A DNA stretch of 64,000 nucleotides, taken from contig NZ_JAGYJN010000007.1 in NCBI RefSeq assembly GCF_018402035.1, forward strand, positions 1-64,000, read 5' to 3'. The notes beneath the pieces were generated by a model. That model saw only the letters and a list, made by a program, of their open reading frames with translations. It was not told the origin of the DNA and did not search any database. The DNA comes from Roseicyclus sp. GTDB lineage: Bacteria; Pseudomonadota; Alphaproteobacteria; Rhodobacterales; Rhodobacteraceae. Positions 27,533 to 52,469 of this stretch are shown piece by piece. The stretch's first letter is position 1. Each line of letters starts with the position of its first letter. The translations under genes were made by a program, and so were the position numbers.

Positions 27533-27609
27533 GCCGGCGTAGCTCAGTTGGTTAGAGCGCCTGATTGTGGATCAGGAGGTCCCCCGTTCAAGCCGGGGCG
27601 CTGGTACCA
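27533..27609 (+). tRNA. tRNA-His (anticodon GTG)
   Basis: A 77-base cloverleaf including encoded CCA. Anticodon stem CCTGA/TCAGG surrounds TTGTGGA; T stem is CCCCG/CGGGG. The acceptor GCCGGCG pairs with CGCTGGT (two G-U pairs), giving discriminator A73. No G-1 needs to be encoded, matching the known alphaproteobacterial tRNA-His type. Its 3' half is the left attachment site of a large integrative element. Confidence 0.95.
27564..27609 (+). other. attL core (46 bp, 3' half of tRNA-His)
   Basis: From ATTGTGG in the anticodon loop to the terminal CCA. Identical to 52424-52469. Confidence 0.9.
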
Positions 27610-27929
27610 ATACTTTCAATAACATACAAGAATTTGGTCGGCTGGGCACTTGCTGCTGGGTTCCAAGTGGGTTCCAAAAACCGTCGGCTAAGGTTTGCCT
27701 TGCAGGGCTCGTTCAATCGACTCTTCTCTCAGTAGGGCACTACTATTGGAATCAGCCATGTCCAGAGGGGTTACTTGCCCCTCTCGTTATCCAAGTCAGA
27801 TCGTTCACGCAGGGGGCACCCCCCTAATTTAGCCCCCCTGCGCGTCAGAAACGCCCTTGTTTGATAGGTCCGCAAAAAATTCGTTGGGTAATTTCGTTTG
27901 TCAGCTGCGGCAGAGATCAAAGTTTTGGG
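27610..27929. other. Left end of the element, no gene seen
   Basis: Holds a candidate integrase arm site (27658-27679) and two hairpins: AGAGGGG/CCCCTCT at 27763-27783 and GCAGGGGG/CCCCCTGC at 27808-27840. No open frame here looks coding. Confidence 0.5.
27658..27679 (+). repeat. Candidate integrase arm-type site, left
   Basis: GGGTTCCAAGTGGGTTCCAA followed by AA, itself two GGGTTCCA units. It matches 52286-52307 at 19 of 22 positions, in the same orientation. In the circular form the two would lie on either side of the 46-bp core. Confidence 0.5.
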
Positions 27930-28085
27930 CACCAAGCGCCTTGCCCAGTGACCACGACGCGGCGCAACCAGATCGAGATCATGGCGGGTCGGTTGAAGAA
28001 CCGGCGGCGCATTGCCACCCGCTATGACAGAAACCCAAATATTTTCCTGTCCGATACAGCCCCCGCAGCGGTCAGTGTGCTCTAG
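27930..28085 (+). pseudogene. IS5-family transposase C-terminal remnant
   Basis: The frame reads NQIEIMAGRLKNRRRIATRYDRNPNIFL, which is the end of IS5-type DDE transposases (normally EIMFGRLKDWRRIATRYDR). The key part is GRLKNRRRIATRYDR. The tail after it is scrambled and nothing of the N-terminal part remains. Confidence 0.75.
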
Positions 28086-28260
28086 TTTTAAGGATCAATC
28101 CCCTCCAAGCCGCGACTAAGGGAACTCTCAGAGATCGCCCCATTTGCCTAAAAAGTCGCGCGGAGCGGAAAGAAGTGATGGTTTCGTGCCGCGACAGTGC
28201 GGTTCCCAGATTGGAGAGGTGAAAAACGGGCGGCACCATTGTGACGCCTGCTTGCGATGC

Positions 28261-28953
28261 TCACAGAACCTTTACCGTCAGATTGCCCACACCTGCGACA
28301 TGGCCTTCCATCATATCTCCGCGCACGATGGGTCCTACACCTGCAGGCGTGCCCGTCATGATCGCATCGCCTTCGACCAGTTCAAAGTAGCGCGACAGGA
28401 TCGAGATCATTTCCGGCACCTTCCAGAGCATCTGGTTCAGATCGCCCTCCTGCCGGATCTCGCCATTCACCTTGAGCCAGATCGCGCCCTGATCGGGGTG
28501 GCCGATCTTGGATGCGGGCACAAGCGGCGTGCAAGGGGCGGATTGGTCGAAGGATTTGCCGACTTCCCAGGGGCGGCCGAGCTTCTTGGCCTCGCCCTGC
28601 AGATCGCGCCGCGTCATGTCGAGGCCGACGCCATAGCCATAGACATGCTCGAGCGCCTTTTCGACGAGGATGTTCCGCCCGCCCTTGTGGAGCGCCACGA
28701 CCAGTTCGATCTCGTGATGCACATCGCTGGTTTCGGTCGGGTAGGGGAAATCGCCAAAGACGATGTTGTCGGGGCTTTTCTTGAAGAAAAACGGCGGTTC
28801 CTTGTCCGGGTCGTGGCCCATCTCGACGGCATGGGCGGCGTAGTTGCGGCCGATGCAATAGACGCGGCGCACGGGAAAGGTGTTGTCCGAGCCTTCGATC
28901 GAAAAACGCGTGACCGCGGCGGGGGCGAAAAGGTCTTTGGGGGTCGTTGTCAT
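28261..28953 (-). CDS. FAH family hydrolase, fumarylpyruvate hydrolase-like
   Basis: 230 residues: RVYCIGRNYAAHAVEMGHDP near residue 30, HHEIELVVAL (metal-binding glutamates) near residue 80, GYGVGLDMTRRDLQ (aspartate ligand), and TGTPAGVGPI near the end. This set is typical of fumarylpyruvate/acylpyruvate hydrolases of the gentisate and related pathways. AAGGAAG lies 7 bases before the ATG. Upstream on the same strand is the FAH/permease chimera, so a once larger catabolic operon is likely. Confidence 0.88.
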   Translation of the reverse strand: MTTTPKDLFAPAAVTRFSIEGSDNTFPVRRVYCIGRNYAAHAVEMGHDPDKEPPFFFKKSPDNIVFGDFPYPTETSDVHHEIELVVALHKGGRNILVEKALEHVYGYGVGLDMTRRDLQGEAKKLGRPWEVGKSFDQSAPCTPLVPASKIGHPDQGAIWLKVNGEIRQEGDLNQMLWKVPEMISILSRYFELVEGDAIMTGTPAGVGPIVRGDMMEGHVAGVGNLTVKVL

Positions 28954-29023
28954 TCCACTCTTCCTTGGAGTTTTGGTCGTTTGGAGGCCTGATGCCCTGC
29001 CTTTGCAGACAGGGCAACAGCCT

Positions 29024-29527
29024 TCAGCTGTCGGTCAAGGTGCTGGATTTGTGCCAGAACACGAAACGGCGCTGGGTCCAGACCACGGCCATGAAGATCA
29101 CGAGCCCGATGATGCTGAGATAGATGATCAGCGCAAACACCCGCGCGGTATCGAGATTGGAGGCGGGCGCATCGGGCAGAACCATGGTGTCGCCCTGTCC
29201 GATCACGGCGTTCGAGACCTTGTGAAAGGCGTTGATCGGCGGCGGTTCGGGCAGGGTGCCGTCTTCCATGTAGTTGGTTGCCATGCACACGATGTTGCGC
29301 GGACGCGGTAGCGGCGCGCGGATGCGGATTGAGGTCAGCGGCACGCCAGCGGCGGTTTTCACATGCGCCTCAATCCGGGCGCGGTAGCTGTCGAACTGCG
29401 CGATCAGCGCTGCCATCAGATCTTCGCGCATTAGATGCGGTAGGTCGGTCAGCAGGGCCGTCACATTGACGCCCTCATCGCCCCGCAGCACGAAAACTTC
29501 GTGGTCATTGCCGTAAAACAGCCGCAT
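29024..29527 (-). pseudogene. Chimera: FAH N-terminal part fused to ABC permease C-terminus
   Basis: 168 codons from ATG 29527, open throughout. Residues 1-~123 are the start of an FAH-family enzyme (MRLFYGNDHEVFVLRG ... IVCMATNYMEDGTLPEPPP ... DTMVLPDAPAS). From NLDTARVFALIIYLSIIG the sequence becomes the last transmembrane helix and tail of a TauC/SsuC-type ABC permease (QRRFVFWHKS). The junction lies near 29157. A deletion joining two same-strand genes explains it. The product lacks the FAH active site and most of the permease, so it is probably non-functional though uninterrupted. Confidence 0.8.
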
Positions 29528-29582
29528 GCATTTCCCCCCCTTGCCGACCGAAGCCATGATTCTATCTTGCTTTTTTCATAGA

Positions 29583-29804: not shown

Positions 29805-30485
29805 ATGTCTGACAAGGCACAATCGCTTGGAATTTCGGTCTTTCACGAGATCAAGCGCGATATCTTGATGGCCATTCTGCCGCCTTGCCAGAAGCTCGGG
29901 CTGAAGATGCTATCGGATCGTTATAACTGCGGCAACTCGCCGATCCGTGAAGCGCTCAATCAATTAACGGTCGAAGGCTGGGTACAGCGTATTGATAAGC
30001 GAGGTTTTTTTGTAGCCGATGCCTCGGCAGCCGATTTTGACGACATCTTGCGAAACCGCTGTCTGCTCGAAGGTGAGGCACTGCGCCGATCAATTGAACT
30101 TGGTGATCAGCAGTGGGAAGAACAAGTTCTCGTGGCTCATTTTCGTATGAACGCTTTGGACCGCGACGCCGATGATCAGCCCGGCAGCGCCGTCTCGGCC
30201 TGGGAAGTGGCCCATCGCAATTTTCATCAGGCGTTAATCTCGGCTTGCGGGTCGCGTATCCTGCTCGAAAACTGTGCTCGGCTCTATGAATTGAACATCC
30301 GTTACCGCGTCTTGGCGCGGCGTAGGTCACGTATCGTGCGTAACGTCGTTAATGAGCATGACGCTATAAAAGATCTCGCGCTCATGCGGGATTCAGCTGG
30401 TGCAGTCGATATGCTAGTAAAACACTACGTCGCGACCGGTGAGTTCCTATTTCCTACCGCCCCCCCCTCCGATAAGGCAGGTTAA
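29805..30485 (+). CDS. GntR family regulator, FCD type
   Basis: 226 residues from ATG 29805. The winged-helix domain reads LSDRYNCGNSPIREALNQL then VEGWVQRIDKRGFFVA (residues ~38-75), and the FCD effector domain follows with histidines in AHRNFHQALISACG and the basic-rich end. It is closely similar to the GntR gene at 33981-34721, so the two are probably paralogues. It likely controls the divergent FAH genes in response to a carboxylate. Confidence 0.88.
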   Translation: MSDKAQSLGISVFHEIKRDILMAILPPCQKLGLKMLSDRYNCGNSPIREALNQLTVEGWVQRIDKRGFFVADASAADFDDILRNRCLLEGEALRRSIELGDQQWEEQVLVAHFRMNALDRDADDQPGSAVSAWEVAHRNFHQALISACGSRILLENCARLYELNIRYRVLARRRSRIVRNVVNEHDAIKDLALMRDSAGAVDMLVKHYVATGEFLFPTAPPSDKAG

Positions 30486-31071: not shown

Positions 31072-31998
31072 CTATTTGTAAACAGCCGCCGGCGTTTCGA
31101 AGAAAGATTGCAAGATGTGATACACCGTCATGTAGTTCTTTTGCTGGATCGAGGCGTGTGAAATCCCCTGCATCACCGAAAACTGCTTGTCAGGGTGGGG
31201 CAACGCCTTGAAGAAGGCCAACAGATCATCGATCCCCGCGATGCCGTCATATTCCCCGCGCATTACCAGCGTAGGCATGGTCAGGCGGCTGGGGTCGGTC
31301 ACTGGAAGATTGGCGCACATATCTAGGTAAGTGCCGGTCGGAACGCTGTCATCCAGCGCCACAATGGCCTCGGCAAAGGCTTCAATCACCTTGTCCTCAG
31401 CGCAGCCGGGATGGTCGCGATTGAAAATCGACCAGACGAAATCGCGGTCGATAGGGCGGCGTTCGCCTGTTTGCCAGCGCGCAAGGTTTTGGGCGCGCTG
31501 TGCCAATGTCGGGCTTCCCTCGCCTGTCCAAACCATCGCATCAAGAGCCAACCGCGCCACCCGCTCGGGCTTGCGCTCGGCGAAATTCGCGGCCCTGAGC
31601 GCGCCTGAAGAAATCCCGTAAACCAGGAAGGCGCTCACGCCTGTTTCCGCCATGATGTAATCGGTGGCAGCAATCAGGTCATCGCCGCCGGCCGCGATAT
31701 TGGCGGTCACGGAGGGGTCTTTGTCAGAGCGGCCATACCCCTCCATGTCGACACACCAAGTGTCGTAGCCTTGGGAAACGAACCAATCCATCGCCGAGGA
31801 ATAGGGCCGCCCCGGCACCTGAAGATCAAAGGTTGGCGTCGAAGCCATGGATGATCCATGCACGAACAGCACCGTTCCCTTGGGCGTCCCCACTGGCACC
31901 TTTTTCTGCCACAGGAACAGGGTGACATCGCCCTTTTTTGTCCAGTGCTCGGTTCCGGAATAGCTCTTTTCGGGCATAACGGGGGTAACCATGGTCAT
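31072..31998 (-). CDS. Alpha/beta hydrolase
   Basis: 308 residues. FVHGSSMAS near residue 48 gives the oxyanion region, VYGISSGALRAA near residue 125 the nucleophile elbow, MRGEYDGIAGIDDL the acid, and GISHASIQQ near residue 290 the histidine. No signal peptide. It sits between an IS3 remnant and two aldo/keto reductase genes on the same strand. A carboxyl-ester or carbon-carbon bond hydrolase of the catabolic block is likely; substrate unknown. Confidence 0.82.
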   Translation of the reverse strand: MTMVTPVMPEKSYSGTEHWTKKGDVTLFLWQKKVPVGTPKGTVLFVHGSSMASTPTFDLQVPGRPYSSAMDWFVSQGYDTWCVDMEGYGRSDKDPSVTANIAAGGDDLIAATDYIMAETGVSAFLVYGISSGALRAANFAERKPERVARLALDAMVWTGEGSPTLAQRAQNLARWQTGERRPIDRDFVWSIFNRDHPGCAEDKVIEAFAEAIVALDDSVPTGTYLDMCANLPVTDPSRLTMPTLVMRGEYDGIAGIDDLLAFFKALPHPDKQFSVMQGISHASIQQKNYMTVYHILQSFFETPAAVYK

Positions 31999-32018: not shown

Positions 32019-33020
32019 TTACAGGCCCATTTTTGCAAGTTGGAATTCGGGGTAACGCAGGCCCGCCGCCACTCCGGGGGAAAAGGCGGCGGACAGGCGG
32101 GCGATATCGGACGCGGTCAGATACACAGCGCGCGCTGCAAGGTTTTCTTCAAGCCAACGGCGGCGTTTCGTGCCGGGGATCGGTACAAGCCCATCCCATT
32201 GCGCCAAAAGCCATGCCAGCGCCACCTGCCCATTGCTGACGCCATGGGCCGCTGCGATTTCGGCAAGCGGTTCCAACAGCGCCAGATTCTGTTCGAAATT
32301 CCCTGCTTGAAAGCGCGGATGGGCGTGGCGGCGGTCGGTCGGGATCAGATCGTCGCGGCTCGCGAAGGCGCCGGTCAGAAACCCGCGCCCCAAGGGGCTA
32401 TAAGGCACCAGCCCAACCCCCAACTCCCTGAGAAGCGGCAAGATCGCCGCCTCAGCATCACGGGTCCAGAGCGAATATTCCATCTGCACTGCAGACAGCG
32501 GGTGGGTATCATGGGCACGCCGGATGGTGTCCGGCCCCGCTTCGCACAGGCCGATGAAACGGATCTTACCTGCCTCGACCAGCCGCGCCATGGCGCCGAC
32601 CGTATCTTCGATCGCCACATCAGGGTCGATCCGGTGGACATAGTAAAGATCGATCACATCAACGCCCAAGCGCCTGAGACTGGCCTCACAGGCTTGCGGT
32701 ATGTAATCGGGATGACCGTTGGTGCCGCCGCGTTCGCCGTTCGGGCCGCGGATGTTGCCGAATTTGGATGCGATCACCAGACCATCGCGCATGCCCAGGA
32801 TTGCACCTGCGATCAGCTCTTCGTTGCGGCCCGCGCCATAGGCGTCGGACGTGTCAAAAAGCGTCACGCCCATCTCGATGGCACGCTGGATAGTGGCCAC
32901 CGATTCCACATCATCGGGCAGGCCATAATCCGACGTCATGCCCGAGCAGCCCAGCCCAAGCGTCGAAACCTGCAAGCCCTGCGACCCCAGCGCGCGATAG
33001 TCCATCGCCGCCACTGTCAC
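32019..33020 (-). CDS. Aldo/keto reductase (first of a tandem pair)
   Basis: 333 residues with the full AKR set: [25 protein letters not shown] (catalytic D and Y), VIASKFGN (catalytic K), YYVHRIDP (catalytic H), VQMEYSLW and [14 protein letters not shown] (NADP site). The pattern is that of the AKR13-type (yeast YakC-like) reductases. Overlaps its upstream paralogue by 4 bases (33017-33020), so the two are translationally coupled. Confidence 0.92.
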
Positions 33021-33994
33021 AAGTTCACGCGCTTCATCTGGCCCGCCGGATAGCGGGTGCCCGCCCCAGCCCCTTCGCGGAAAATCCGATCCAGCGTGGC
33101 AAGTGTAGAAACCGAGGGAATGATGTCGAGCGCGGCGGTGTTTTCCTCCAGCCAGCGACGGCGTCGGGTGCCGGGGATGGGCAGGATGTCATCGCCTTGG
33201 GCCAAAAGCCACGCCAGCGCCAGTTGGGCCGGGGTGCATCCTTCGTGATGGGCGAGTGCTCTGAGTTCTTCCACCAGCGCTACATTGTGCGCAAGGTTTT
33301 CCGGCTCAAAGCGGGGATGGTCGCGGCGGCGGTCATCCTCGGCCATGTCCGCAAGCGTGCCGATGGTGCCAGTCAATAGACCACGCCCCAGCGGCGCATA
33401 GGCAACAAAACCGATCCCAAGCGCGCGGCAAGTGGGCAGGTGTTCGGCCTCAACCCCACGATACCAAAGCGAGTATTCGGTCTGAAGCGCGGTGATCGGA
33501 TGGGTCGCATGGGCGCGTCGCAACGTCTGGGCCGATGCCTCCGACAGCCCCAGATGCAAGATTTTGCCCTCAGCCTTGAGGTCGGCCATAGCACCGATCG
33601 TGTCTTCGATGGGCACCGTTGGGTCGATACGATGAATGTAATACAAATCGATCCGGTCCGTACCGAAGCGCTTGAGACTGGCTTCGCAGGCTTCGCGCAC
33701 ATATTCGGGCCGCCCGTTCACATCGCGGCGACCATCGGGATAGCGAATGTTGCCGAATTTTGTAGCCAGAACAGCCCCATCGCGCCGCCCGGCAAGCGCC
33801 CGGCCCACCAGCATCTCGTTCTTGCCGTCGTTATAGGCATCGGCGGTGTCGATCATTGTAACACCCAGATCAAGGGCGCGGTGGATCGTTGCCACAGCCT
33901 CATCGGGATCGGGTGCGCCATAGATCGGGGTCATGCTCATGCAACCCAAGCCGACCGCAGACACCTCGAGAGAACCAATTTTACGCAATTTCAT
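33017..33994 (-). CDS. Aldo/keto reductase (second of a tandem pair)
   Basis: 325 residues from ATG 33994. Same motifs as its neighbour: [58 protein letters not shown]. The two proteins are recognisably paralogous over their full length, but differ enough to suggest an old duplication or separate recruitment. Its start overlaps the end of a GntR gene by 14 bases, so regulator and reductases form one unit. Confidence 0.92.
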
Positions 33995-34721
33995 GGGACA
34001 TACCTTTGGTGTTCTGAAAAATATGGGACATATCAAGACCTAGACCGGCCGGCACAATCGTAGCCGCCAGCACAGCGTCGCCTGTTTGTCGGTAATGATC
34101 GATCAGCGCTTGCGCCGCGCCTTGGGGGGATCGCTCCAATGCCAGATCGCACAGCTTTTTATGCTCGGCCTCGACCGACCGGGCCGAGCCCTGAACCGTA
34201 CGGGCGAAAAAGCGATAGCGGTTGTTCAAGTCGTGCAATCTTTCGCAGGTTTCCAGCAATATCCGCGAAGGGCAGGCCGACAAAAGCGCCATATGAAAGC
34301 GTTTATGCGCTGCTTCCCAATCGGGATTAGGCTGCCGCAATCCATCTTTGCCCTGTGTGTCGCGCTTAAGGTTGCTGAGCCGAAAATGTGCGATCAGCAC
34401 GCGCTCTTCCCATTCGGCATCACCCAAGGCGATGGATTGCCTCAGCGCCTCGCTTTCCATGAAGCCACGGTTGAACAAGATATCTGCGAAATCATGCGCT
34501 GAGATTCCCGCTACGAAAAATCCGCGCCGATCGATACGCTCGACCAGCCCTTCCGAGGCCAGCCGCGTCAGCGCCTCGCGCACAGGAGAGGCGCCACAGG
34601 CGTATAGTCCGCTCAACAGTTTGAGCGAGAGCTTTTCACCGGGTTTTAGCCGCGCGGTCAGAATGTCGCTACGAATGGTTTCCACGAGGGAAATACCAAT
34701 AGATTGCGTTGCGCTGGCCAT
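33981..34721 (-). CDS. GntR family regulator, FCD type
   Basis: 246 residues from ATG 34721; an upstream in-frame extension is antisense to the next gene and is rejected. The winged helix ([23 protein letters not shown], key stretch [11 protein letters not shown]) and FCD domain ([20 protein letters not shown]) are intact. Strong resemblance to the regulator at 29805. The tail ENDS in an unusual stretch ([13 protein letters not shown]). It heads the aldo/keto reductase unit and lies after the terminator of the transporter operon. Confidence 0.88.
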
Positions 34722-34740
34722 GAGGCTCCTTTGATTAGGG

Positions 34741-34767
34741 AAACCGGCGACACAGGGTCGCCGGTTT
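34741..34767 (-). terminator. Terminator at the end of the transporter operon
   Basis: AAACCGGCGAC pairs with GTCGCCGGTTT around a five-base loop, an 11-base-pair perfect stem. It lies between the binding-protein gene and the GntR gene on the minus strand. Confidence 0.7.
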
Positions 34768-34782
34768 GCTGTTATGCCTATG

Positions 34783-35796
34783 TCAGCTGGCGCGTAGGCG
34801 ATCCGCATAGCGGCGCGCCAGTTCGATCGTATCCGCGACGATCTTCTGGCAGACCACCTCGTCGCCGTATTCCACCCCTTCGAATGGATAATTCGCGGCT
34901 GCGAAATTGGCACGCAACTCGGTGTTGTCAAAGCTCGCCCGGATCGAATTGACCAAACGTTCCCGCACTTCGGGCATGGTTTCCCAAACCTCTGTGTGCA
35001 TGGCGAAACCATTGGCCAGTTCCAGCTCGGGAATGGTTGTGCCGAACACATCGTTGATCAGCGGCGCATTCCCCATTTGGGCGTTGAACGCCTCGACCGA
35101 GCGGAATGTTCCCAATACGCGCACCTGATCGCCGAGGCTGATGGCAACACCGGCCGTCAATACCGCCGCATCGGTTTCACCGGTGATAACCGCCATGGAA
35201 GTTGGATTGCCACCGCCATAGGGGATCATATTGAAATCAGCGCCCATGGCATCGGCCAACGACAGCATCCCGATGGTACCTGGATGCGGCAGGCGGCTGG
35301 TGGCGATGTTCACTGTGCGCTTTTTGCCTTCATCGACGAGTTGCTCGATCGACTGGATCGGGCTGTTGGCCCCGACGTAACATACGATGGGCGTGCCGCC
35401 GGTCTTGGCAAAGTGGATGATATCACCGGGCAGATCATAATTGGTGTTTTGCGTCGCAAAGGTGATGATCTCGGGGTGCATGTTGGAATAGAGCAGGTTG
35501 TAGCCGTCCTTATCGCGGCGCTGGGCATAGAGCTCGTATCCCACCTGACCACCAGCGCCGGGATGGAATTCATATTCGAACTCCACGCCCAGATCGGTGC
35601 GCATCACATTGGTAAAAGCGCGCGCCGTGGTTTCCGCGCCGCCACCTTGACCCGTGGCGATCACGATATTGATGTTTCGTGTCGGATAGGCTCCCTGCGC
35701 CCGCAGGATCGCAGGGGCAAACAAGCTGGCTGCCCCAATCGTCGCCCCGGTTCCCAGAATACTACGCCTGCTGAATGTCTTGAGTGTCTTGGCCAT
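34783..35796 (-). CDS. Tripartite tricarboxylate transporter substrate-binding protein (Bug/TctC)
   Basis: 337 residues. The N-terminus FSRRSILGTGATIGAASLF is a twin-arginine signal, and the mature protein begins near QGAYPTRNINIVIATG, as in Bug proteins. HPGAGGQVGYELYAQRRDKDGYNLL is the ligand-loop region (key stretch PGAGGQVGY). It delivers a carboxylate to TctAB. It is separated from tctA by the LVIVD gene, an uncommon order. Confidence 0.9.
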   Translation of the reverse strand: MAKTLKTFSRRSILGTGATIGAASLFAPAILRAQGAYPTRNINIVIATGQGGGAETTARAFTNVMRTDLGVEFEYEFHPGAGGQVGYELYAQRRDKDGYNLLYSNMHPEIITFATQNTNYDLPGDIIHFAKTGGTPIVCYVGANSPIQSIEQLVDEGKKRTVNIATSRLPHPGTIGMLSLADAMGADFNMIPYGGGNPTSMAVITGETDAAVLTAGVAISLGDQVRVLGTFRSVEAFNAQMGNAPLINDVFGTTIPELELANGFAMHTEVWETMPEVRERLVNSIRASFDNTELRANFAAANYPFEGVEYGDEVVCQKIVADTIELARRYADRLRAS

Positions 35797-38632: not shown

Positions 38633-39124
38633 TCAGAGGAAAAAGCCCTTGAGGGTCTGGTCGATGATGTTCGTCGGGAAACGAACCTTCACCAGAACGA
38701 TGAAGACAAGAAAGGCGACGATGGTCATGCCAAGAGCGGTAAAAGCGGCAGCCTTGATCCGCTCTACTCCGCCGATGACGATCACGGCAGAAAACACAAA
38801 GGCGAAAATCGTGACGACAAAGCCCAAGACCGGCATCAACACGATAAAACCAACGGTGAGTGCCAGCACGCTCCAACGGCGTGCCTCCGACACCGGGTCG
38901 CTGAAAAACCCCTCGATCCCCCAGGATTTCTGACCCGACCAGATTTCCCGACCGAACCGGATGAACAGAATGAAGCTTAGGATCGCAATCGCGGCAGCGA
39001 CGTAGATGCCGACGACCTTGGCCTGAAACGGCAATTCCCACACCGTCGACAGATAATAGATGCCGAATGCGATCGACCCGACCGGGATGATCAACTCTGG
39101 CAAGAGACCCGGACGCTTTTCCAT
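38633..39124 (-). CDS. Tripartite tricarboxylate transporter small permease subunit (TctB)
   Basis: 163 residues, four hydrophobic segments. LIIPVGSIAFGIYYL near the start, the central VLALTVGFIVLMPVLGFVVT and the last helix TALGMTIVAFLVFIVLVKV follow the TctB plan. Immediately upstream of tctA on the same strand. Confidence 0.88.
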   Translation of the reverse strand: MEKRPGLLPELIIPVGSIAFGIYYLSTVWELPFQAKVVGIYVAAAIAILSFILFIRFGREIWSGQKSWGIEGFFSDPVSEARRWSVLALTVGFIVLMPVLGFVVTIFAFVFSAVIVIGGVERIKAAAFTALGMTIVAFLVFIVLVKVRFPTNIIDQTLKGFFL

Positions 39125-39953: not shown

Positions 39954-39982
39954 TATTTTCCCCGATAATTTTGATTCTAAGG

Positions 39983-41010: not shown

Positions 41011-41024
41011 AATCGACATTTCCT

Positions 41025-43578: not shown

Positions 43579-43899
43579 ATGAGTATGACGATGGACGACA
43601 GCATCAAGCGGTGGACAGCGAAGCGGAAGACGGCGCTGGTCATCGAGATCATCCAAGGCAAGACGACGGTGGCGGAAGCCAGTCGTTCCTTCGATCTGTC
43701 ACCCTCTGAGATTGAGGGCTGGATCGAGGATGCCAAGCGCGGGATGGAGAACTCCTTGCGCGCCAACCCGCTCGATATCCGGGAACAGTACGAGAAGCAG
43801 CTCAAGGATCTGCAAGAGGCCTATGGCGAGGCGATGCTGGAGCTTCGTGCGCGAAAAAATGTATGGTCCGCCCCGCTATTGCAAGGTTTTCGTGGGTGA
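43579..43899 (+). pseudogene. IS3-type element OrfA, 3' end replaced by inserted IS
   Basis: The frame starts with a helix-turn-helix OrfA: RWTAKRKTALVIEIIQGKTT, VAEASRSFDLSPSEIEGWIE, then EQYEKQLKDLQEAYGEAMLELRARK. After about base 43860 the sequence changes to that of another IS, so the last ~12 residues (VWSAPLLQGFRG) are foreign. The partner OrfB resumes at 45287. Confidence 0.85.
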
Positions 43900-44098
43900 C
43901 GCACCGGCTTGCGTAAATGTATCCGGCCTCTGATCAGTCAGCCGCTTTTGGCGACAAGGCCTTGATGAGATCCGCCCCTCGGGTTCCAGATTAGTGGAAC
44001 GGGATCATGTCCCGCTTTTTTGCGCGTGGCTTACCCGTGGTCGATCAACCGTTTGGTCATCACGTCCCCTGCAATGGGTTTTGCGGTGAAGGTTCAGC
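43877..44098 (-). ncRNA. Candidate guide (bridge/seek) RNA region of the IS1111-type element
   Basis: 222 non-coding bases downstream of the transposase, where IS1111-group elements encode the RNA that pairs with donor and target DNA. It includes a hairpin CGGGA/TCCCG followed by CTTTTTT at about 44001-44021 when read on the plus strand. The RNA ends and loops cannot be defined by eye. Confidence 0.35.
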
Positions 44099-45148
44099 TC
44101 ACACAGCTGCCCCTTTTGACCGCAGATAGACGGTGCCGGGTTGTGTGAGGATTGCCCAAACAATCCTCGTCAGTTTGTTGGCCAAAGCAACAACGGCTTT
44201 GTTGCGGTGTGTTCGGGCTTCCAAAGCATTTAACCAGCGCCCCAAGGCATGGCTTTCCCGGTTTAGATGCAAAAAACAGGATCGCGCCCCGTGGATGATC
44301 AGACGGCGCACGTATCCATTTCCGCGTTTACTGATCCCAAGAAGGATTTGCTTTCCCCCGGTCGAATGTTCTGCTGGCACCAGCCCTAGCCATGCCGCCA
44401 TGTCTCTGGCTTTGCGGAATTGCTTCCCGTCACCAGCCGCCGCCACAAGTGCTGTTGCGCCCAAGGGGCCAATGCCCGGTACAGTCAACAACCTGCAGAT
44501 CGTCTCATCCTCTTTGGCTATTGCCTCGATCTTTGTACTCAAGGCTTTAACCCTCTTCTCGATGTAGGTGAGGTCGTCTAACAGATCGCTCAGCAGCCCC
44601 CGCATATTTTGGGTCAGATCGTTTTCCTGATTGTCGAGATGCCGCCGAATGTCGGCATGAAAGCCACCGGCTCCTATCCGCATTGCCAGCCCGTATTCGA
44701 TGCAAAAGGCCCGCGCCTGATTCATCAATCCGGTTCGCTGTCCGACAAGCCGGTCTCGGATCCGGTGAAGCGCTTGCAGATCAACCTGCTCTGGCGTGCG
44801 TACTTCGACAAACCTCATAGTCGGCCTGGTGACGGCTTCAGCAATGGCCGCCGCATCAACCGTGTCGGTCTTGTTTGACTTGACATAAGGCTTGACAAAT
44901 CTTGCCGGGATGATCCGGGCATCATGCCCCATATCAATCAGCCTTCGTGCCAACCATTGTGAACCCGGACAGGCTTCCATGCCAATCAAGGTTCTAGGCG
45001 CCAAGTCGAAGAACGATTGGAGCGTCTCACGCGCGAACTTTGTACGCTGGATGACTGCGCCCTCGCGATCGACGGCGACAACGTGAAACACCTTTTTGCC
45101 GATGTCGATACCATAGGCAAAGGTTTCTGGTAGGGGTTTGGTTCGCAT
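44099..45148 (-). CDS. IS110-family transposase
   Basis: 349 residues, intact. The N-terminal RuvC-like DEDD domain opens with YGIDIGKKVFHVVAVD, followed by IGMEACPGSQWLARRL and KSNKTDTVDAAAIAEAV. The C-terminal Tnp20 domain carries TVPGIGPLGATALVAAAGDG and RDMAAWLGLVPAEHSTGGK, with the conserved serine expected further along. GGAGACAAAGG precedes the ATG. These recombinases work without cutting and joining TIRs and use a guide RNA. Confidence 0.95.
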   Translation of the reverse strand: MRTKPLPETFAYGIDIGKKVFHVVAVDREGAVIQRTKFARETLQSFFDLAPRTLIGMEACPGSQWLARRLIDMGHDARIIPARFVKPYVKSNKTDTVDAAAIAEAVTRPTMRFVEVRTPEQVDLQALHRIRDRLVGQRTGLMNQARAFCIEYGLAMRIGAGGFHADIRRHLDNQENDLTQNMRGLLSDLLDDLTYIEKRVKALSTKIEAIAKEDETICRLLTVPGIGPLGATALVAAAGDGKQFRKARDMAAWLGLVPAEHSTGGKQILLGISKRGNGYVRRLIIHGARSCFLHLNRESHALGRWLNALEARTHRNKAVVALANKLTRIVWAILTQPGTVYLRSKGAAV

Positions 45149-45286
45149 CCTTTGTCTCCTTTTGTTTGGCGATGCAGCAAGAGCATACGTTAGGGTGCGG
45201 GGCGGACCATCCCATTAGTTTCAGGCCCTCATGGTGAGGCCATGAGCCGCCACCGGTCCGAGGCCATGGCCGAACGGAGGACGGGA

Positions 45287-46094
45287 ATTGATCCGGACGC
45301 TTCATGAGGGCCTGCTGGCGGAGGGGGGATCTCAGTGCCGCTGGCCGCTGTGCGCTTGTCTGCGTGCCGCGGCGGACGATTTACTACATAAGCCAACGAA
45401 GGTCGCGCCGAAGGTCGATCCCTGGCTTTGCCGACCCGACTGCCGATGATCGAGGCAGAGCCGTCCTTTGGGTATAGGACGGTGGCGTGGCTCGGCCTAA
45501 TAAAAACACGGTTCAGAGGATCTTCCATCAAGGGCTGGCAGGTTCGCAAACGACCTATCGGTATGCGTCCTCGGATCGAGGCGCTGCCTTCCGTCGCCAC
45601 GACCCCGGAACGAGCGCTGGTCGACTGATCTGTGCCGCGTTTTGCAGGGCGAGATGGCTTGACAACGCTTGCACTGGTGATCAACTGCCATACCCGCGAG
45701 CTTCTGGGCTGGCACTCCTCCTCCCGATCTGGAAAATACGACAGTGCCGCCGGCACCTTTTGGAGCACGCCTGATTGCCCGATTTGGCACGCTCGGCAGG
45801 GTCCCGCAGGAGTTCCTTCTGAGGTCTGACAACGGCCTGGTCTTCACGAGTAGAAAATACACGGCCTTGGTGAAAAGCTACGGTCTGAGGCAAGAGTTCA
45901 TCACGCCCCACTGCCCGCAGCAAAACGGCATGGTCGAGTGTGTGATCCGACCCCGAAAGAATGCGTCCATCGCCAGCGCTTCGACAGCATCCAGCACGCC
46001 AGACGTGCCATCGGTGACTGGATCAGTTTCTACAACCACAAACGCCCTCACTATGCGATTGCCACGAAAATACCCGCTCAGGCATATGCATTAG
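45287..46094 (+). pseudogene. IS3-family transposase OrfB, degraded by frameshifts
   Basis: The OrfB of the element whose OrfA is at 43579. Pieces in several frames read IRTLHEGLLAEG, CVPRRTIYY, PKVDP, MIEAEPSFGYRTVAW, KGWQVRKRPIGMRPRIEALP, then LTTLALVINCHTRELLGWH, LLRSDNGLVFTSRKYTALVK and LRQEFITPHCPQQNGMVE, the D-D-E integrase core, ending FYNHKRPH. At least five frame changes are needed, so it is inactive. Confidence 0.9.
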
Positions 46095-46178
46095 CGTCCT
46101 GAAATGCGCAGATTCCGCTGAGCCATTACACCGCCGCCAGCCCTCAGCCGTTCGCCTGATCAAGTTCCAAGGACCAAG

Positions 46179-46373: not shown

Positions 46374-46883
46374 CTAACGAATTTTCATTGATTGAACTGC
46401 GCCAGAAAAACGATCCTTGTAAATAAAAAATAGATCATTGCCGGCTTCCTGTACGGCATAATCACTGTAACCATATGAGATGTCTATTCTTGATTTTTCA
46501 CCATCGCTCATTACTACAATGATCCCAAATGGCTTTACTGATGTTGGTGAGCTTATTACAATAAATACGATGGTTCCGTGGTTATTTGTCTCAAGAATAG
46601 CAGAGTAAAAATCTGCGGAATAATCAATGCTGGGGGATTTTCCATAATTATAAGGCCCGTGCGACTCGGTAAGGTAAAAAATAAAGTCCTCTACTACTAG
46701 GTTTGCAACAGACTGTAGTGTTTCTTGATAGTATTCTTCGGGTAGGCCGCGTTCAAAGTTTATTGATGTGCAACGTTGTGCTCCCTCAGAAGCAGAGCAA
46801 AGTTCGTTTGTTACATCTGCTTGAGCGGTGTGGGTAATGGCTAACCAGAAAAGCAGGATCCACCAAAACTTTGAGAGCTTCAT
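46374..46883 (-). CDS. Exported protein of unknown function (cassette gene 2)
   Basis: 169 residues from ATG 46883. A signal peptide is clear: a basic start (MKLSKFWW), a hydrophobic core (ILLFWLAITHT) and cleavage after AQA. The mature part (DVTNELCSASEGAQRCTSINF ...) has two cysteines that could bond, and beta-rich stretches such as TIVFIVISSPTSVKPFGIIVVM. No family is recognised. Clearly AT-richer than the element around it. Its start overlaps the stop of the upstream gene by ATGA, so the two act together. Confidence 0.6.
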   Translation of the reverse strand: MKLSKFWWILLFWLAITHTAQADVTNELCSASEGAQRCTSINFERGLPEEYYQETLQSVANLVVEDFIFYLTESHGPYNYGKSPSIDYSADFYSAILETNNHGTIVFIVISSPTSVKPFGIIVVMSDGEKSRIDISYGYSDYAVQEAGNDLFFIYKDRFSGAVQSMKIR

Positions 46884-47740
46884 TGGCAATAAATTTCTAA
46901 ATTTGCGAGACTTGGAGGCAGGTGGCTCCAACGTGGTAGCGTTGTGCACCGCGTTGGTACGTTCGGTTGCATCGGTGCGATGGGTTGAAAAACTGGCGGT
47001 GGCCGCGCGCAACGTTCCCCAGTCAACATATAGAGTTGTTGATCAGCCATTCTTTCACCAACAGATCCTTGGGGTGAAATACTGCAAGCCGCTCGCAGTT
47101 GAATGACGCGGTTCTGTAAATCTTGTTGAGCGTTGGTTGTGCTGCTACTTGGGGTAGACGGCCTACTGACTTGTCTAACTGCAGGTGTCTCTCGAAAAGC
47201 AGTCAAAAATAAGCGATCGATATCTCGGTGTGTGCTGCTAGCCCTTAAAAAACTTGACTCTGTGCGCTGCCCCCATAGCCCATCGATCGCACCATTATAT
47301 TGATAATTGTTTGCGAGCCATTTTTGGATGCGTTCTCTGTCTGATGCTGACAGCTGAAAAAAAGTACTTTTTGCTTCATTTATCCACTCAGCTTGGCTCG
47401 TGCGATTTGCTTGCGGGGTATTGATGGCAAGTGCCTCTCCACTAGGCCTACCAAAAGCGGTCTGAGCGTCGTTCTTAAGCGATGTAAATGTGGTAGTGGT
47501 TTCCGTCATTATATTTTGTGCCCATGCCAAGATGGGCTCATGAAGAGATGGTTTTTGATATATGAGAAAACCTACAACAGCAAAAGAAACGATGAATGCA
47601 ATTGTTTTGGGGGATCGGAACGCGTTTCGGTTTTGGCGTGCAGAGGGTGTAGCAGGAGCTTCTTGATACAACTGCCGCGCTGGTTGAGAAGGGTGTTCGC
47701 TTTTGGGTGATCGCAAAGGAGGTTCAATCCTCTGGGCCAT
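46880..47740 (-). CDS. Membrane-anchored protein with peptidoglycan-binding-like segment (cassette gene 1)
   Basis: 286 residues. A ~45-residue polar N-terminus is followed by one transmembrane helix (TIAFIVSFAVVGFLIYQ, ~46-62), a Ser/Thr-rich linker, and near residue 145 the motif NNYQYNGAIDGLWGQRTESSF, which resembles peptidoglycan-binding domain 1 (core YNGAIDGLWG). A Ser/Pro/Gln linker and a C-terminal cysteine-containing part follow (AACSISPQGSV, ERCARPPP, RCTTLP, IYCQ). So it is probably anchored in the inner membrane with a periplasmic domain touching the wall. Role unknown. Confidence 0.6.
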   Translation of the reverse strand: MAQRIEPPLRSPKSEHPSQPARQLYQEAPATPSARQNRNAFRSPKTIAFIVSFAVVGFLIYQKPSLHEPILAWAQNIMTETTTTFTSLKNDAQTAFGRPSGEALAINTPQANRTSQAEWINEAKSTFFQLSASDRERIQKWLANNYQYNGAIDGLWGQRTESSFLRASSTHRDIDRLFLTAFRETPAVRQVSRPSTPSSSTTNAQQDLQNRVIQLRAACSISPQGSVGERMADQQLYMLTGERCARPPPVFQPIAPMQPNVPTRCTTLPRWSHLPPSLANLEIYCQ

Positions 47741-47925
47741 CTCGCACCTGCCTTCTGTTTCGCAGCAAACGACCGCACCATGCTAGGTGGCCACACCGTT
47801 GCCCATATTTTCTCAACTTCCAACTTAGTCGTAAGTTCTCTTGGTGTAGCCGACGGGTCAAGTGTTTGTGCTTGAGATGATGCTTTCTACGATCCTTGAC
47901 CCTCTGTGCTGATGAGGCCCCTGGT

Positions 47926-47962
47926 ATTGGATTGCGGACCGCGGTTCTTGCAACTCGGCCCT
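47926..47962 (+). repeat. Third copy of the ~36-bp repeat, right of the unknown cassette
   Basis: ATTGGATTGCGGACCGCGGT followed by TCTTGCAACTCGG. Same orientation as the left copies. The surrounding 47741-48013 shows no gene. Confidence 0.5.
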
Positions 47963-48013
47963 CGACTGTCACCGCAAATGACGTTATATTATAACAGTCA
48001 TATTGGGGCAGAC

Positions 48014-48370
48014 ATGCGGTTCACAAAAGGCAACGAAATCGGCGCTGCAACTCGCTTCGGTCCGGATTGGTCGGGCCAACGCTGTGGCGCGAGGACCAAG
48101 GCTGGGGTGCCTTGCCAGCGTCCTGCTGTGAAGCGGACGGGGCGCTGCACGCGGCATGGAGGCAAGTCGACCGGAGCTCGGACCGAGGCGGGACTTGCGC
48201 GGATCGCGGCGGCGCAGCTCAAGCACGGGCGGTTGACGCGTGCGGCTAGGGAAGCTGCTAAACGCCGTGCTCAGATTGGGCGTGCGATCAGGAAGGAGCT
48301 GCGGAGCATTGAGCAGGCTCTAATTGCTGAAGGGTTGTTGCCCAAAGCGTGGCGCGATCAGTTCGATTAG
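48014..48370 (+). CDS. HGGxSTGP-type small protein
   Basis: 118 residues. RCGARTKAGVPCQRPAVKRTGRCTRHGG (key stretch CTRHGGKSTGARTEAG) is the signature of the HGGxSTGP family, with cysteines and histidine that may bind zinc, followed by a basic helical tail (AAREAAKRRAQIGRAIRKEL). Such proteins are frequent in prophages and integrative elements; their role is unknown. Convergent with the primase-helicase gene and separated from it by a hairpin. Confidence 0.8.
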   Translation: MRFTKGNEIGAATRFGPDWSGQRCGARTKAGVPCQRPAVKRTGRCTRHGGKSTGARTEAGLARIAAAQLKHGRLTRAAREAAKRRAQIGRAIRKELRSIEQALIAEGLLPKAWRDQFD

Positions 48371-48445: not shown

Positions 48446-50740
48446 TCAAACTTTGGCCGGAAAATTCATCACTTTGGTCAGCAGGTTCCTCTGAAACACC
48501 ATTTCGCCCTTGCTGCGGCGGACGATGTCCCAGCTGTGATCGCTCACAACGCGCTCCCGCAGGCGTTGCGTAAACCGGCTCTGCCCCGGGATGTGCTGGA
48601 TGCCGAGGTTGCCCATATCCTCGCGGAAACGTACGTACAAATCGCGGACAAGGACGCCCGCCGTGTGGACGTGCCGCTCTAGCCCCCCATCCTCGAACCA
48701 TTCTGCTACTGGATCAACATCCTTGAACCACTGCACGGTAGCGGCTTCGCATTTTGATGGGATGGTGAAGCCCCCCCGCGCGACCACATCGGCAGCCGCT
48801 TGAAGAGCCAGCGATACGAGCACATCCCCCTCTTGCTCGACGATTTTGGCGGCTAAATCGGGGATCCGCTCAGCTTCTGGGATCGACCGATTAAACGGAA
48901 CGACGACGATCCGCCTGACAATGCCGTTGTCCACGCCGCCTGAGAAGCTGGGCAAATGGTTGGCCGAGAAAACGTGCAGCGCCCTCGGCGTGAAAGTAAA
49001 CGGCACTTTGTAGATCGCCTTCGCCTGTACCGGATCGCCGGTCACCGTCGCCTTGAAGCGGTCGGTTGCGATCGCCTTCGCACTCGATATTTCGTCGCTG
49101 AGGTTGACTTGGCAGCCCGCGAGCGTCGCCAAAAACTGCGGCTCCCCCAGATCGGCCGGCGCGATGCAAGCGACTACGTTTCTTGGAAGAAGTTGGCGCA
49201 TCGTAGCTTGAATAGTCGATTTTCCGTTTGCGGCGCTCGGTCCGTGAAAAACAAACGCCTTGGGGTTGGAGAGGCCGGTATTTATCCCAGAAATCGCGGC
49301 TCCCATTATCTCCAAAATGAGCCGGTGACTTTCGACGTCGTCCTTGCCGAAACTGCCGAATAACAGTGTCTGCAGGAGGCCGTCTGGCACTTCGCAGACG
49401 TCGGGGAGCCATTCTTGCGCGATCAAAAACCGCTGCCGATGCTCAGCAGAATGAGGCTCGAGGCCGATCTTGCCGCACGCGGAGATTTTGACGAAGCCAT
49501 TGCGCAGATTGACACCCCGTTCACTGGCTTCGAAGAAGTTGGGACTGTCTGCCATGGCGGCCATCTCCCGAATTACCCCGTCTATGAAGCTTCTCGAAAT
49601 CCGCAAGATGCTGTTTTTTCCGTAGTGCGTCCCGTCAAGTTTGTGGGCCCTCTTACGAAGCGCGCTCTCCGGGATTTCTTCCCAGTGTGTCGAGCTGTAG
49701 CCCCAAAACGTTCCCTCGCTGTGGACAAGAGGGGCTGAGGTTTCCGCGCCGATTTCGTTGCACAAGAGGGTGGCGATCTCAATTTGTGTCCCCAGCCGTA
49801 GGCCGTTGTTGCGCCGTGTCGGGACGTACCCATTGGCCTTGGCCATGGCGAATATAGCCCCAATCCCGATGCGGTTCGGGGCAAAGCTGTTCCAAGCTGC
49901 GATCACGTCGGCGTCATCGATGTAGTTGTGGGGTTTGCGGCCGGTCAGGTCACCTCTCGAAAATTCGAGGTATAGCGCGAGCAGGTTGGGGTCAGTGCTT
50001 TTCATTGCATGGCCGATTTTGATCCAATTTTCTCTAGGTTCGGGGTCGATATGCGCCAGAGCTTCCCGTAGCGCCTCAAGGTCAGCCTTGCCGTCAGTGT
50101 CAAAATCGCTGTCTGTTTGCTCGACAGCAGGTTTTTCGGTTGTCGGAAATGCTTCCTGAAGCTCGGCATATGTGTACGAAAGGTCGTCATGCGCGCTCTC
50201 GATCTGGGTCATGAAGGGCTCGCTTCGGAGGCCTCTTTGCACTTTCTGGTGAAAGAATCCGGGCAAGCGCATAACGCGTGGAAGGTCGCAACATGCGTGA
50301 TCGCCATCGAACGCATCGGCGATCGCATGTTGCGTTGGCGTGAACGCTTCAAGGGGCATATCCGAGCAGAGAAAATAAACGTGCCACCGCCCCTTTGAGC
50401 TTTCGACAACTATGGTCGGCTCGAGTTGGTGATTGAGCACGGGTTCCAATGGTGCGCCGTCTAGATCAACAAAACAGGCCCGCACTTTCAGAACGTTGCT
50501 GGCCTTGCGTCCTTTGAAATCGGTTTGATTGATGACAACGAATATCCCCGCCCCTTGTTCGTTGTAATGAACCAGAGTGTCGAAGTGTGTATCCAAGGCC
50601 CCATGGATAAACTTTGATAAGTGCCCGCGTTTGCGGTCCTTATCGTCGTCTATGATTTGGAAAACGAACATCCCTCCGGGATCGAGCATATCAAGAAAGC
50701 GTTGTGCTTCGGCTTTCGACGGTTTCAGCGGCATGCTCAT
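48446..50740 (-). CDS. P4-type primase-helicase (phage/plasmid primase with SF3 helicase)
   Basis: 764 residues from ATG 50740. Residues ~1-200 are a RepB-like primase region (CFVDLDGAPL, then RWHVYF and DLPRVMRLPGFFHQK). Near residue 240, ENWIKIGHAMKSTDPNLLALYLEFSRG is a PriCT-2 segment. The SF3 helicase follows, with Walker A GPSAANGKST near residue 500 and VNLSDEI as Walker B. It would start replication of the excised element, as alpha protein does in P4. Coupled to the AlpA-like gene by an ATGA overlap. Confidence 0.9.
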   Translation of the reverse strand: MSMPLKPSKAEAQRFLDMLDPGGMFVFQIIDDDKDRKRGHLSKFIHGALDTHFDTLVHYNEQGAGIFVVINQTDFKGRKASNVLKVRACFVDLDGAPLEPVLNHQLEPTIVVESSKGRWHVYFLCSDMPLEAFTPTQHAIADAFDGDHACCDLPRVMRLPGFFHQKVQRGLRSEPFMTQIESAHDDLSYTYAELQEAFPTTEKPAVEQTDSDFDTDGKADLEALREALAHIDPEPRENWIKIGHAMKSTDPNLLALYLEFSRGDLTGRKPHNYIDDADVIAAWNSFAPNRIGIGAIFAMAKANGYVPTRRNNGLRLGTQIEIATLLCNEIGAETSAPLVHSEGTFWGYSSTHWEEIPESALRKRAHKLDGTHYGKNSILRISRSFIDGVIREMAAMADSPNFFEASERGVNLRNGFVKISACGKIGLEPHSAEHRQRFLIAQEWLPDVCEVPDGLLQTLLFGSFGKDDVESHRLILEIMGAAISGINTGLSNPKAFVFHGPSAANGKSTIQATMRQLLPRNVVACIAPADLGEPQFLATLAGCQVNLSDEISSAKAIATDRFKATVTGDPVQAKAIYKVPFTFTPRALHVFSANHLPSFSGGVDNGIVRRIVVVPFNRSIPEAERIPDLAAKIVEQEGDVLVSLALQAAADVVARGGFTIPSKCEAATVQWFKDVDPVAEWFEDGGLERHVHTAGVLVRDLYVRFREDMGNLGIQHIPGQSRFTQRLRERVVSDHSWDIVRRSKGEMVFQRNLLTKVMNFPAKV

Positions 50741-51086: not shown

Positions 51087-51120
51087 AATCTAGAGTATAA
51101 ATTAAGTACGTGATTGTATG

Positions 51121-52281
51121 CTACTTATTGGAATTCACCAAGTCCTCAACAAATTGCCCCCAAGCCGTCAGCGCGGCTTCTCGATCCGCCAAATGCTCGC
51201 CCCTTTGGTAAATCGCGGCTACGCCACGCACTGTGCCTGAGACGTGGTTCAAGATGCGATCAACTACGACCGGAGTAATCCTCATGTCGTCCGCCATAAA
51301 CGTTGCTGCCGTCCGCCTTAGGTCATGGAGGCGCCAATCAGAGACATGGCTGCGGGCGTCGAGAGCAACCTTGGCCTTTGAAAAGCCGCTTACGGCTGAC
51401 CGCCCGGTTGTGGTGAACACGAGATCAACGCCGTCCCGCCTAGGGATTTTGGAAAGCAGGGCGCAGGCCTGCGGGCTTAGGTGTACGATATGTGCTTTCG
51501 AGTTTTTTGCTCGTTCTTTGCCAATTATCCACCGTGCGCGGTCGAGGTCGAGCTCAGACCATTTCATGCCCGCAACCTCGTCGCGCCTCTGGGCGGTCAG
51601 AATAAGCAGCTGCACAATGCCGCCGAACGGAAAGCCCATTTGTTCAGCTGCCTGCCATACGGCAAGCAGCTCGTCCCTCGATAGAACACGATCCCTCGAC
51701 ACCTCCACGGTTGGTCGTGGTAGAGTGGCTGCTGGTGACACTGTGAGGAGATCGCGTTCGGTGGCAAAGTTGAAAAATCGGACGACGAACGCCCGGACCC
51801 TATTTGCTTGGGTAAGCTTTCCTTGATCCGCCACTCGGTCAATCACGCGCATGAGATCTGCCTTTGTGATCTGATCGAGTTGGTGCCGCCCTAGGAAAGG
51901 CAGGACGTGAAGTCGTATAGCTTGTTCGACCTGCCAAAAGCTTTTTCTGGCCCGCTGCTCGCGTGCGTACCACTCCACTAACGCAGCCTCAAAGGTCATC
52001 GATGCCTTCTTGCGGTCAAAAGTACCCTCATGGATTTCGGATAGCGCAACCCGAGCCGCCTCGCGCGCTTTGCTCAAACCCATGGCAGGATATCCGCCGA
52101 GCGTGACCCGCTTTCGTCTGCCGCCCTCACGGGTGAGCAACACCCACGACAAAGCGCCGCTCGTCGCTACGCGTACACCAAATCCGGGCTGGGAGGCGTC
52201 ATAGACATCGTATCGCTTATCTTTCGGCTTGAGCGAACGGATGAGCGCGTCAGTTAGCCGGACCGTTGACAGCTTAGGCAT
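51121..52281 (-). CDS. int: Tyrosine integrase of the element
   Basis: 386 residues from ATG 52281. The N-terminal DUF4102 arm-binding domain is visible (LTDALIRSLKPKDKRYDVYD, then GFGVRVATSGALSW). Catalytic motifs of P4-type integrases are all present: TAQRRDEVAGMKW (Arg I), HIVHLS (Lys region), RLHDLRRTAATFM (His-x-x-Arg), LNHVSG (His) and the tyrosine in AIYQRGEH. It starts 143 bases from attR and reads inward, as expected for integration in a tRNA gene. Confidence 0.95.
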   Translation of the reverse strand: MPKLSTVRLTDALIRSLKPKDKRYDVYDASQPGFGVRVATSGALSWVLLTREGGRRKRVTLGGYPAMGLSKAREAARVALSEIHEGTFDRKKASMTFEAALVEWYAREQRARKSFWQVEQAIRLHVLPFLGRHQLDQITKADLMRVIDRVADQGKLTQANRVRAFVVRFFNFATERDLLTVSPAATLPRPTVEVSRDRVLSRDELLAVWQAAEQMGFPFGGIVQLLILTAQRRDEVAGMKWSELDLDRARWIIGKERAKNSKAHIVHLSPQACALLSKIPRRDGVDLVFTTTGRSAVSGFSKAKVALDARSHVSDWRLHDLRRTAATFMADDMRITPVVVDRILNHVSGTVRGVAAIYQRGEHLADREAALTAWGQFVEDLVNSNK

Positions 52282-52285
52282 TTTT

Positions 52286-52307
52286 GGGTTCCATATGGGT
52301 GCCAAAA
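52286..52307 (+). repeat. Candidate integrase arm-type site, right
   Basis: GGGTTCCATATGGGTGCCAA followed by AA, 19 of 22 positions as in 27658-27679. It lies just upstream of the integrase start, so a bound integrase could also repress its own gene. Confidence 0.5.
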
Positions 52308-52317
52308 TTGATGCGCT

Positions 52318-52346
52318 GGTACGCAATGGCATGGTACGCAATGGCA
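52318..52346 (+). repeat. Tandem 14-bp repeat upstream of the integrase
   Basis: GGTACGCAATGGCA occurs at 52318-52331 and again at 52333-52346. It may be another protein-binding site of the attachment region. Confidence 0.55.
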
Positions 52347-52423
52347 CGGAATATTCAATATAATATGATATATATAAGGAAAAATGCAGCACTATGGTTC
52401 AGCGCGAAACTATCTAGCAGATA

Positions 52424-52469
52424 ATTGTGGATCAGGAGGTCCCCCGTTCAAGCCGGGGCGCTGGTACCA
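52424..52469 (+). other. attR core (46 bp)
   Basis: Exact copy of 27564-27609. The bases to its left (AGATA) do not continue the tRNA, so only the tRNA 3' half is repeated. Confidence 0.9.

Follow-up and report, generated by a model that had tools for sequence, protein, structure and literature searches.

A 24.9-kb integrative element, probably of the satellite type, carries catabolic cargo in the tRNA-His gene of a Roseicyclus genome

In the Roseicyclus sp. assembly GCF_018402035.1, the tRNA-His gene of contig NZ_JAGYJN010000007.1 is followed by 24.9 kb of DNA that ends in a second copy of the 3' part of the same tRNA gene. This raises the question of what kind of element lies between the two copies and whether it moves as one unit. 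We analyzed positions 1 to 64,000 of the contig (forward strand; the window) together with genomes, contigs and loci of relatives, denoted below by G, C and L numbers. We conclude that the block, which is inserted in tRNA-His and carries catabolic cargo, is with good probability an integrative element of the satellite type that depends on a helper.

The initial annotation had reported an exact 46-bp repeat at 27564-27609 and 52424-52469, with its left copy in tRNA-His. This was reproduced: the two attachment (att) cores have zero mismatches, the flanking bases differ at once on both sides, and the tRNA was confirmed with ARAGORN and Rfam. Within the tRNA gene, the left copy makes up the 3' portion from base 32 (three bases before the anticodon) through the encoded CCA. 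A chance origin of the repeat was rejected, since a random sequence of 64 kb would be expected to hold only ~4e-19 such exact repeats. The absence of a third core copy also led us to reject tandem islands separated by an att site inside the block. No further exact copy of the core of at least 14 bp was found in the 64 kb on either strand, and the best look-alike within the element was a 16-bp match (87.5%), which bears out the earlier statement that the interior holds no additional copy. No RNA feature besides the tRNA reached the Rfam gathering score in 27000-53000. The G+C content in 2-kb windows was 0.475-0.62 inside the element, with the minimum at 46-48 kb, 0.56-0.68 left of 27 kb, a range that overlaps the inside range, and 0.63-0.68 right of 54 kb.

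We then compared the predicted empty site (attB; 27501-27609 joined to 52470-52600) with related genomes. A single stretch with at least the 3' part of tRNA-His was taken per genome, from the 12 other genomes of the genus and from two other genera. The predicted attB was one continuous piece in nine of the 12 same-genus genomes (G002 to G006 and G008 to G011), which indicates that both element ends are correct, as had been claimed from the repeats and left to a comparison with relatives lacking the insert. In G007 only the right half of attB was found, adjoining an attR (an occupied right side). The halves lay ~1.1 kb apart in G012 and ~13.2 kb apart in G001. The ~1.1 kb of extra DNA in G012 (L057 3172-4262) stands directly 3' of tRNA-His and is perhaps the remnant of another insertion. 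The 13.2-kb block in G001 (L053 518-13742), bordered by tRNA-His and by the same flank on the right, has a different gene content (an ABC transporter and an amidase among the genes named by eye), and no second 46-bp core copy was matched there. In the genomes from the two other genera, alignment was limited to the left half of attB; in G023 the right flank was ~270 bp further on, and in G036 it was not found within the stretch examined. The block thus has what characterizes a tRNA-targeted integrative island, namely a tRNA 3' repeat at both ends with an intact tRNA, its own integrase and an empty site in relatives. The acquired genes (27.6-52.4 kb) can now be separated from the host genome in the window.

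The right end contains a compact core (Table 1). A complete tyrosine integrase had been described 143 bases inside the right repeat; its domains were found, and the distance between the repeat and the likely start (52278) was corrected to 145 bases. The gene reads inward from the right repeat, and its open reading frame (ORF) has an alternative start further up at 52392. It is followed by genes for an AlpA-like protein and a primase/helicase, the likely start of the primase (50740) overlapping the AlpA-like stop as ATGA, and by a convergent gene for an HGGxSTG domain protein, in which 29 residues gave a weak small-terminase PHROG match. No conjugation, relaxase, capsid, portal or large terminase family turned up when 24 ORFs of the window were scanned with Pfam and eight with PHROGs, smaller ORFs being unscanned. 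This suggests that transfer would need a helper. The two overlapping ORFs at the left of the core had no Pfam, PHROG or PADLOC match, and PADLOC matched a defence function in none of six proteins scanned.

Table 1 Features of the tRNA-His block in the window, from left to right.
Feature	Position	Strand	Evidence
tRNA-His(gtg), target gene, left whole by insertion	27533..27609	+	ARAGORN; Rfam RF00005, 27533-27606, 64.1 bits
attL core, 46 bp	27564..27609	+	exact repeat
FAA hydrolase family protein	28261..28953	-	PF01557, 169.6 bits
Fused ORF, deletion scar	29024..29557	-	no Pfam family
GntR/FCD regulator	29805..30485	+	PF00392, PF07729
Alpha/beta hydrolase	31072..31998	-	PF12146, PF00561
Aldo/keto reductase	32019..33020	-	PF00248, 237.5 bits
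Aldo/keto reductase	33017..34000	-	PF00248, 262.4 bits
GntR/FCD regulator	33981..35051	-	PF00392, PF07729
TctC-type solute-binding protein	34783..35796	-	PF03401, 42.2 bits
LVIVD-repeat protein	35847..37118	-	PF08309
TctA transporter subunit	37120..38631	-	PF01970, 408.5 bits
TctB transporter subunit	38633..39124	-	PF07331
FAA hydrolase family protein	39129..39986	-	PF01557, 211.4 bits
FAA hydrolase family protein	40141..41019	-	PF01557, 239.2 bits
GntR/FCD regulator	41105..41851	+	PF07729, PF00392
Cargo-cluster protein, no family	41817..42803	+	no Pfam/NCBIfam match; stretch also in G008, 73% DNA identity
Presumed IS3-like insertion sequence, broken by IS110 at ~43856	43579..46138	+	HTH_Tnp_1 43579-43899; weak rve 45744-46094
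IS110-family transposase	44099..45148	-	PF01548, PF02371; element left end ~43853-43856
Two overlapping ORFs	46374..47740 (46374-47012, 46880-47740)	-	relative at 76% DNA identity in contig C2 of the same genome
HGGxSTG domain protein, convergent with primase	47906..48370	+	NF041373, 50.8 bits (cut-off 29)
Primase/helicase (RepB_primase, PriCT_2, DUF5906)	48446..50740	-	PF19263, 49.1 bits; DNA primase PHROGs
AlpA/excisionase-like protein, 65 amino acids	50737..50934	-	phrog_66 excisionase, 1.6e-7; PF12728, 22.9 bits (cut-off 27)
Tyrosine integrase, 385 amino acids	51121..52278	-	PF13356 (Arm-DNA-bind_3), PF22022 (central), PF00589 (Phage_integrase)
attR core, 46 bp	52424..52469	+	exact repeat; identical core in G007

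The cargo occupies the left 15 kb (27.6-43 kb), between the primase and the tRNA. Judged by its protein families, it likely serves the uptake and breakdown of an organic acid; the substrate is left unnamed because the NCBIfam matches of the scanned enzymes were below their cut-offs. The block at 31.1-42.8 kb was found to be largely syntenic, at 65-78% DNA identity, with other places in G005 and G008. No integrase was seen by eye near these clusters among ORFs of at least 120 amino acids, and the G008 stretch stops at a contig end. Of 393 other genomes of the family, 21 gave a match to the LVIVD-repeat protein at E<=1e-60. In the regulator encoded beside the TctC-type protein (33981..35051), the domain begins at ORF residue 123, suggesting that the true start is probably internal. 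The region at 28.3-30.5 kb resembles a cluster in G001 and G005, with ~3.2 kb including ABC-transporter genes missing here. Residues 8-145 and 120-177 of the fused ORF match two places ~3.2 kb apart in L117 (comparison with G001 contig C4). Its N-terminal part resembles a protein adjoining a GntR gene in G001 and G005, and its C-terminal part resembles the end of an ABC permease (named by eye) and also matches a permease in G006. This suggested that the fused ORF arose through the loss of ~3.2 kb relative to the G001/G005 cluster. Contig C24 of the same genome (L081, 5,489 bp) repeats 38371-43859, with 45 differences that all fall in 38371-38667 and with 38668-43859 identical; it is either a second copy or a strain variant.

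The gene content suggests how such an element could move. The integrase would recombine attL with attR, assisted by the AlpA-like protein, to form a circle, which the primase/helicase would replicate after excision. A helper, most likely a phage, would then carry the element. On re-entering a tRNA-His gene, the element would replace the 3' end of the gene with its own copy, so that the tRNA would stay whole.

This arrangement can be compared with PICMI, phage satellites of Vibrionaceae that are inserted beside fis and average 6.7 kb. In the parts of the PICMI report drawn on here, PICMI115 requires int, alpA and a gene overlapping the integrase end for excision and prim for replication, and three PICMI subfamilies are described without a gene between int and alpA (PMC10803314). 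As in these satellites, an integrase, an AlpA protein and a DUF5906- or DUF3987-type primase are clustered, recognized in part by the same Pfam models as those of the PICMI search; the target gene stands at one end, the integrase beside the repeat at the other, and accessory genes between the primase and the target (PMC10803314, same excerpts). Unlike the PICMI so described, the present element lies in tRNA-His rather than fis, measures 24.9 kb, carries catabolic cargo and belongs to another bacterial family. Since it has the three-gene core but neither the fis site nor the small size, it was not filed as a PICMI. Capsid-forming phage-inducible chromosomal islands are marked by their own capsid and packaging genes, of which only the one weak small-terminase match was found in the ORFs scanned.

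Two further groups resemble the element in layout. Tycheposons, in the excerpts available (PMC10872708, PMC11389934), likewise have a tRNA border, a tyrosine recombinase and metabolic cargo. The Pseudomonas islands I23, I44 and I55 combine a tyrosine integrase, AlpA, direct repeats and variable cargo with no genes for autonomous transfer; according to the sections consulted, they differ in their tmRNA target, 14-bp repeat, phage-defence cargo and other core genes, and I55 is carried by a jumbo phage (PMC12595487). We filed the element with the tRNA-targeted islands that have no transfer genes of their own, a kind already known. A literature search found no paper uniting Rhodobacteraceae tRNA-integrase islands with tripartite tricarboxylate genes and none on HGGxSTG; we make no claim that such elements are unreported.

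Two comparable elements were identified in other genomes. G006, a one-contig genome of the same genus, contains a ~13.7-kb element in tRNA-Arg with a 57-bp repeat. Its integrase (50% identical) lies at the far end, followed by an ORF overlapping the integrase end, AlpA (PF05930), a DUF5906 primase and cargo reaching to the tRNA; att, integrase, primase, cargo and tRNA stand in the same order as in the window. It differs in its tRNA and in its cargo (two FAA hydrolase matches together with ABC-transporter and dehydrogenase genes, both named by eye), and its primase matches that of the window only by shared Pfam domains. The second element, L201 (JALQUU010000011.1, a metagenome-assembled genome titled Rhodobacteraceae), is bounded by a 75-bp tRNA-Met repeat around 10.9 kb. 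It has the same order of att, integrase, primase, cargo and tRNA and shares both the primase (84% identical in the best protein segment) and the HGGxSTG motif, whereas its tRNA, integrase and cargo (by eye a GntR-type regulator and an oxidoreductase pair) are different and its primase frame is apparently broken.

The initial annotation had also held that the whole block appears to move as one unit. That the att repeats of both G006 and L201 likewise enclose cargo, and that the integrase there also stands at the end away from the tRNA, supports the block as a present unit. Movement is retained here as a conditional statement, as no excised form was found in viral_contigs and the block is, on sequence likeness, a mosaic: the closest relatives of the primase, of the integrase end and of the cargo are found in different places. 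Different histories lie behind the int-alpA cassette, the primase-HGGxSTG module and at least two cargo clusters, which were joined perhaps partly through insertion sequences (IS). The locus, with its exactly placed ends, its empty site in relatives and two elements for comparison, exemplifies islands that could spread catabolic gene clusters among Rhodobacteraceae while lacking conjugation genes. Their shared core offers a means of finding more of them and of looking for their helpers.

Several observations weigh against the satellite-type reading. No helper phage for the element is known. The two exact junction patterns expected of an excised or packaged form had 0 matches in viral_contigs, where searches with the primase alignment and with the integrase likewise yielded no relative. 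The AlpA-like protein falls below the Pfam cut-off, so that its assignment rests on PHROGs, and the terminase-like label of the HGGxSTG protein rests on one weak match. No ORF overlapping the integrase 3' end toward the AlpA-like gene was seen in the ORF list. In L201 no AlpA gene was identified, and the primase frame stops at 11980 while the likeness continues to 12292, so that this copy looks broken. Decay is also indicated by the two nested IS and by the deletion scar.

Some of these observations would also be expected if the island had arrived as a unit and could no longer leave, which we regard as possible, though clearly the lesser probability. The IS110 element inside the IS3-like element, the fused ORF with its ~3.2 kb of lost neighboring genes and the missing ORF at the integrase end all fit such a dead island. 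However, the reading frames of the integrase, the AlpA-like protein and the primase are open, the two att cores have stayed identical, and the attR arm is almost unchanged in G007.

It is also conceivable, and in our view unlikely, that the mobile unit was the right core only (~46.1-52.4 kb, its left end since lost), and that the catabolic genes came later through IS or recombination and never moved with it. This possibility draws on the joint between cargo and core. The insertion sequence found there, which we take to be IS3-like, spans ~43.5-46.13 kb; its left end is not fixed, its right end was placed by matches in G008 and G009 that stop at 46138 and 46131, respectively, and no inverted ends with at least 13 matching bases were listed for it. 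At 46131 it cuts a helix-turn-helix gene (recognized by eye) beside the core, which is longer in contig C34 of the same genome. The remainder of the gene had no match on the far side of the IS, which argues against a simple insertion into a continuous ancestor. The IS may therefore have helped to join the cargo to the core. A later arrival of the cargo would also agree with the related clusters at other places in G005 and G008 and with G007, which has the attR and the integrase start but no long cargo match (one FAA-hydrolase match at 81% and short pieces). However, the absence of cargo there is weak evidence, because G007 has a completeness of 78% and 23 candidates per genome were scored in the search. 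Moreover, the att repeats enclose the whole block with no third core copy, exactly the whole block is absent from nine of the 12 relatives, and cargo lies between primase and tRNA in G006 and L201 too.

That the block is an integrative conjugative or mobilisable element and moves by conjugation is highly improbable: such elements, too, commonly combine an integrase with a replication gene in a tRNA, but the relaxase that defines them, like any other conjugation family, was absent from the ORFs scanned with Pfam and PHROGs, no search for an origin of transfer having been made.

For the favored satellite-type element, we asked how widely the core modules occur. Primase matches at E<=0.001 were found in 46 of 295 family genomes and integrase matches in 300 of 394 (own genome included in both), most of them distant. 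In plasmids and phages, the primase matched 301 and 813 records, respectively, all at <60% identity, and no match extended over 80% of the query. Scanning genome contigs with the primase alignment yielded 50 loci, all of which were examined. An integrase match lay on the upstream side at 37 of the 50 (one on the other strand), and the HGGxSTG motif was present at nine. Seven loci (L200-L206) match most of the primase query. Six of these have an integrase match within ~1.2 kb upstream, only 0.8 kb being available in L202, and five have a convergent HGGxSTG motif downstream, the DNA available on that side being none in L200 and 0.4 kb in L202 (or the reverse order being excluded by the listing). 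Outside these seven, the motif was on the primase's own strand in four loci, so that the convergent pair was seen only in closer relatives. Beside the integrases of L203 and L205, no tRNA fragments were found using 53 different tRNAs.

The closest primase relative was found in G007, another species, with 95% DNA identity over 48635-50740. The likeness ends at the primase start, beyond which G007 has a different AlpA-like gene (by eye) and a different integrase (28% identical) beside a tRNA-Arg-like fragment. In L201, likeness extends over 48109-50755 at 82% DNA identity, again with a different integrase. G007 also has the attR core of the window together with an integrase start identical in 51 of 51 residues. 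These patterns indicate an exchange of partners between the primase-HGGxSTG portion and the int-alpA portion. As a tentative and rather doubtful extension, there may be a lineage of elements in Rhodobacteraceae and their relatives that are helper-dependent, carry whole catabolic clusters (transporter, FCD regulator and enzymes) where PICMI satellites carry accessory genes, and changed their tRNA target by an int-alpA swap at the ATGA junction while keeping the primase-HGGxSTG module.

Next to tRNA-Ser(gga), contig C34 of the same genome (L065, ~9036-15330) carries another cluster of the integrase and primase type, which shares the HGGxSTG region at 88.5% DNA identity. The helix-turn-helix gene (by eye; 46131-46246 in the window) and the HGGxSTG gene (47934-48532) recur whole or in part in L065, L115, L111 and L113, and such recurrences span several contigs of the same genome and of G007.

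Finally, 23 integrase sequences including that of the window were compared (35-100% identical to it). An att repeat with a full tRNA was found in 10 of the 23 stretches (Gly, Phe in three, Asn in two, Trp, Arg, Thr and His), and none in the other 13, in stretches of 2.9-20 kb. ORFs were listed for eight of the ten, and by eye some contain capsid, portal and terminase genes and some defence-like genes, indicating that integrases of this family do not as a rule come with catabolic cargo. L196 (tRNA-Asn) and L198 (tRNA-Trp), with capsid-, portal- and terminase-like ORFs by eye, could be capsid-forming satellites or small prophages.

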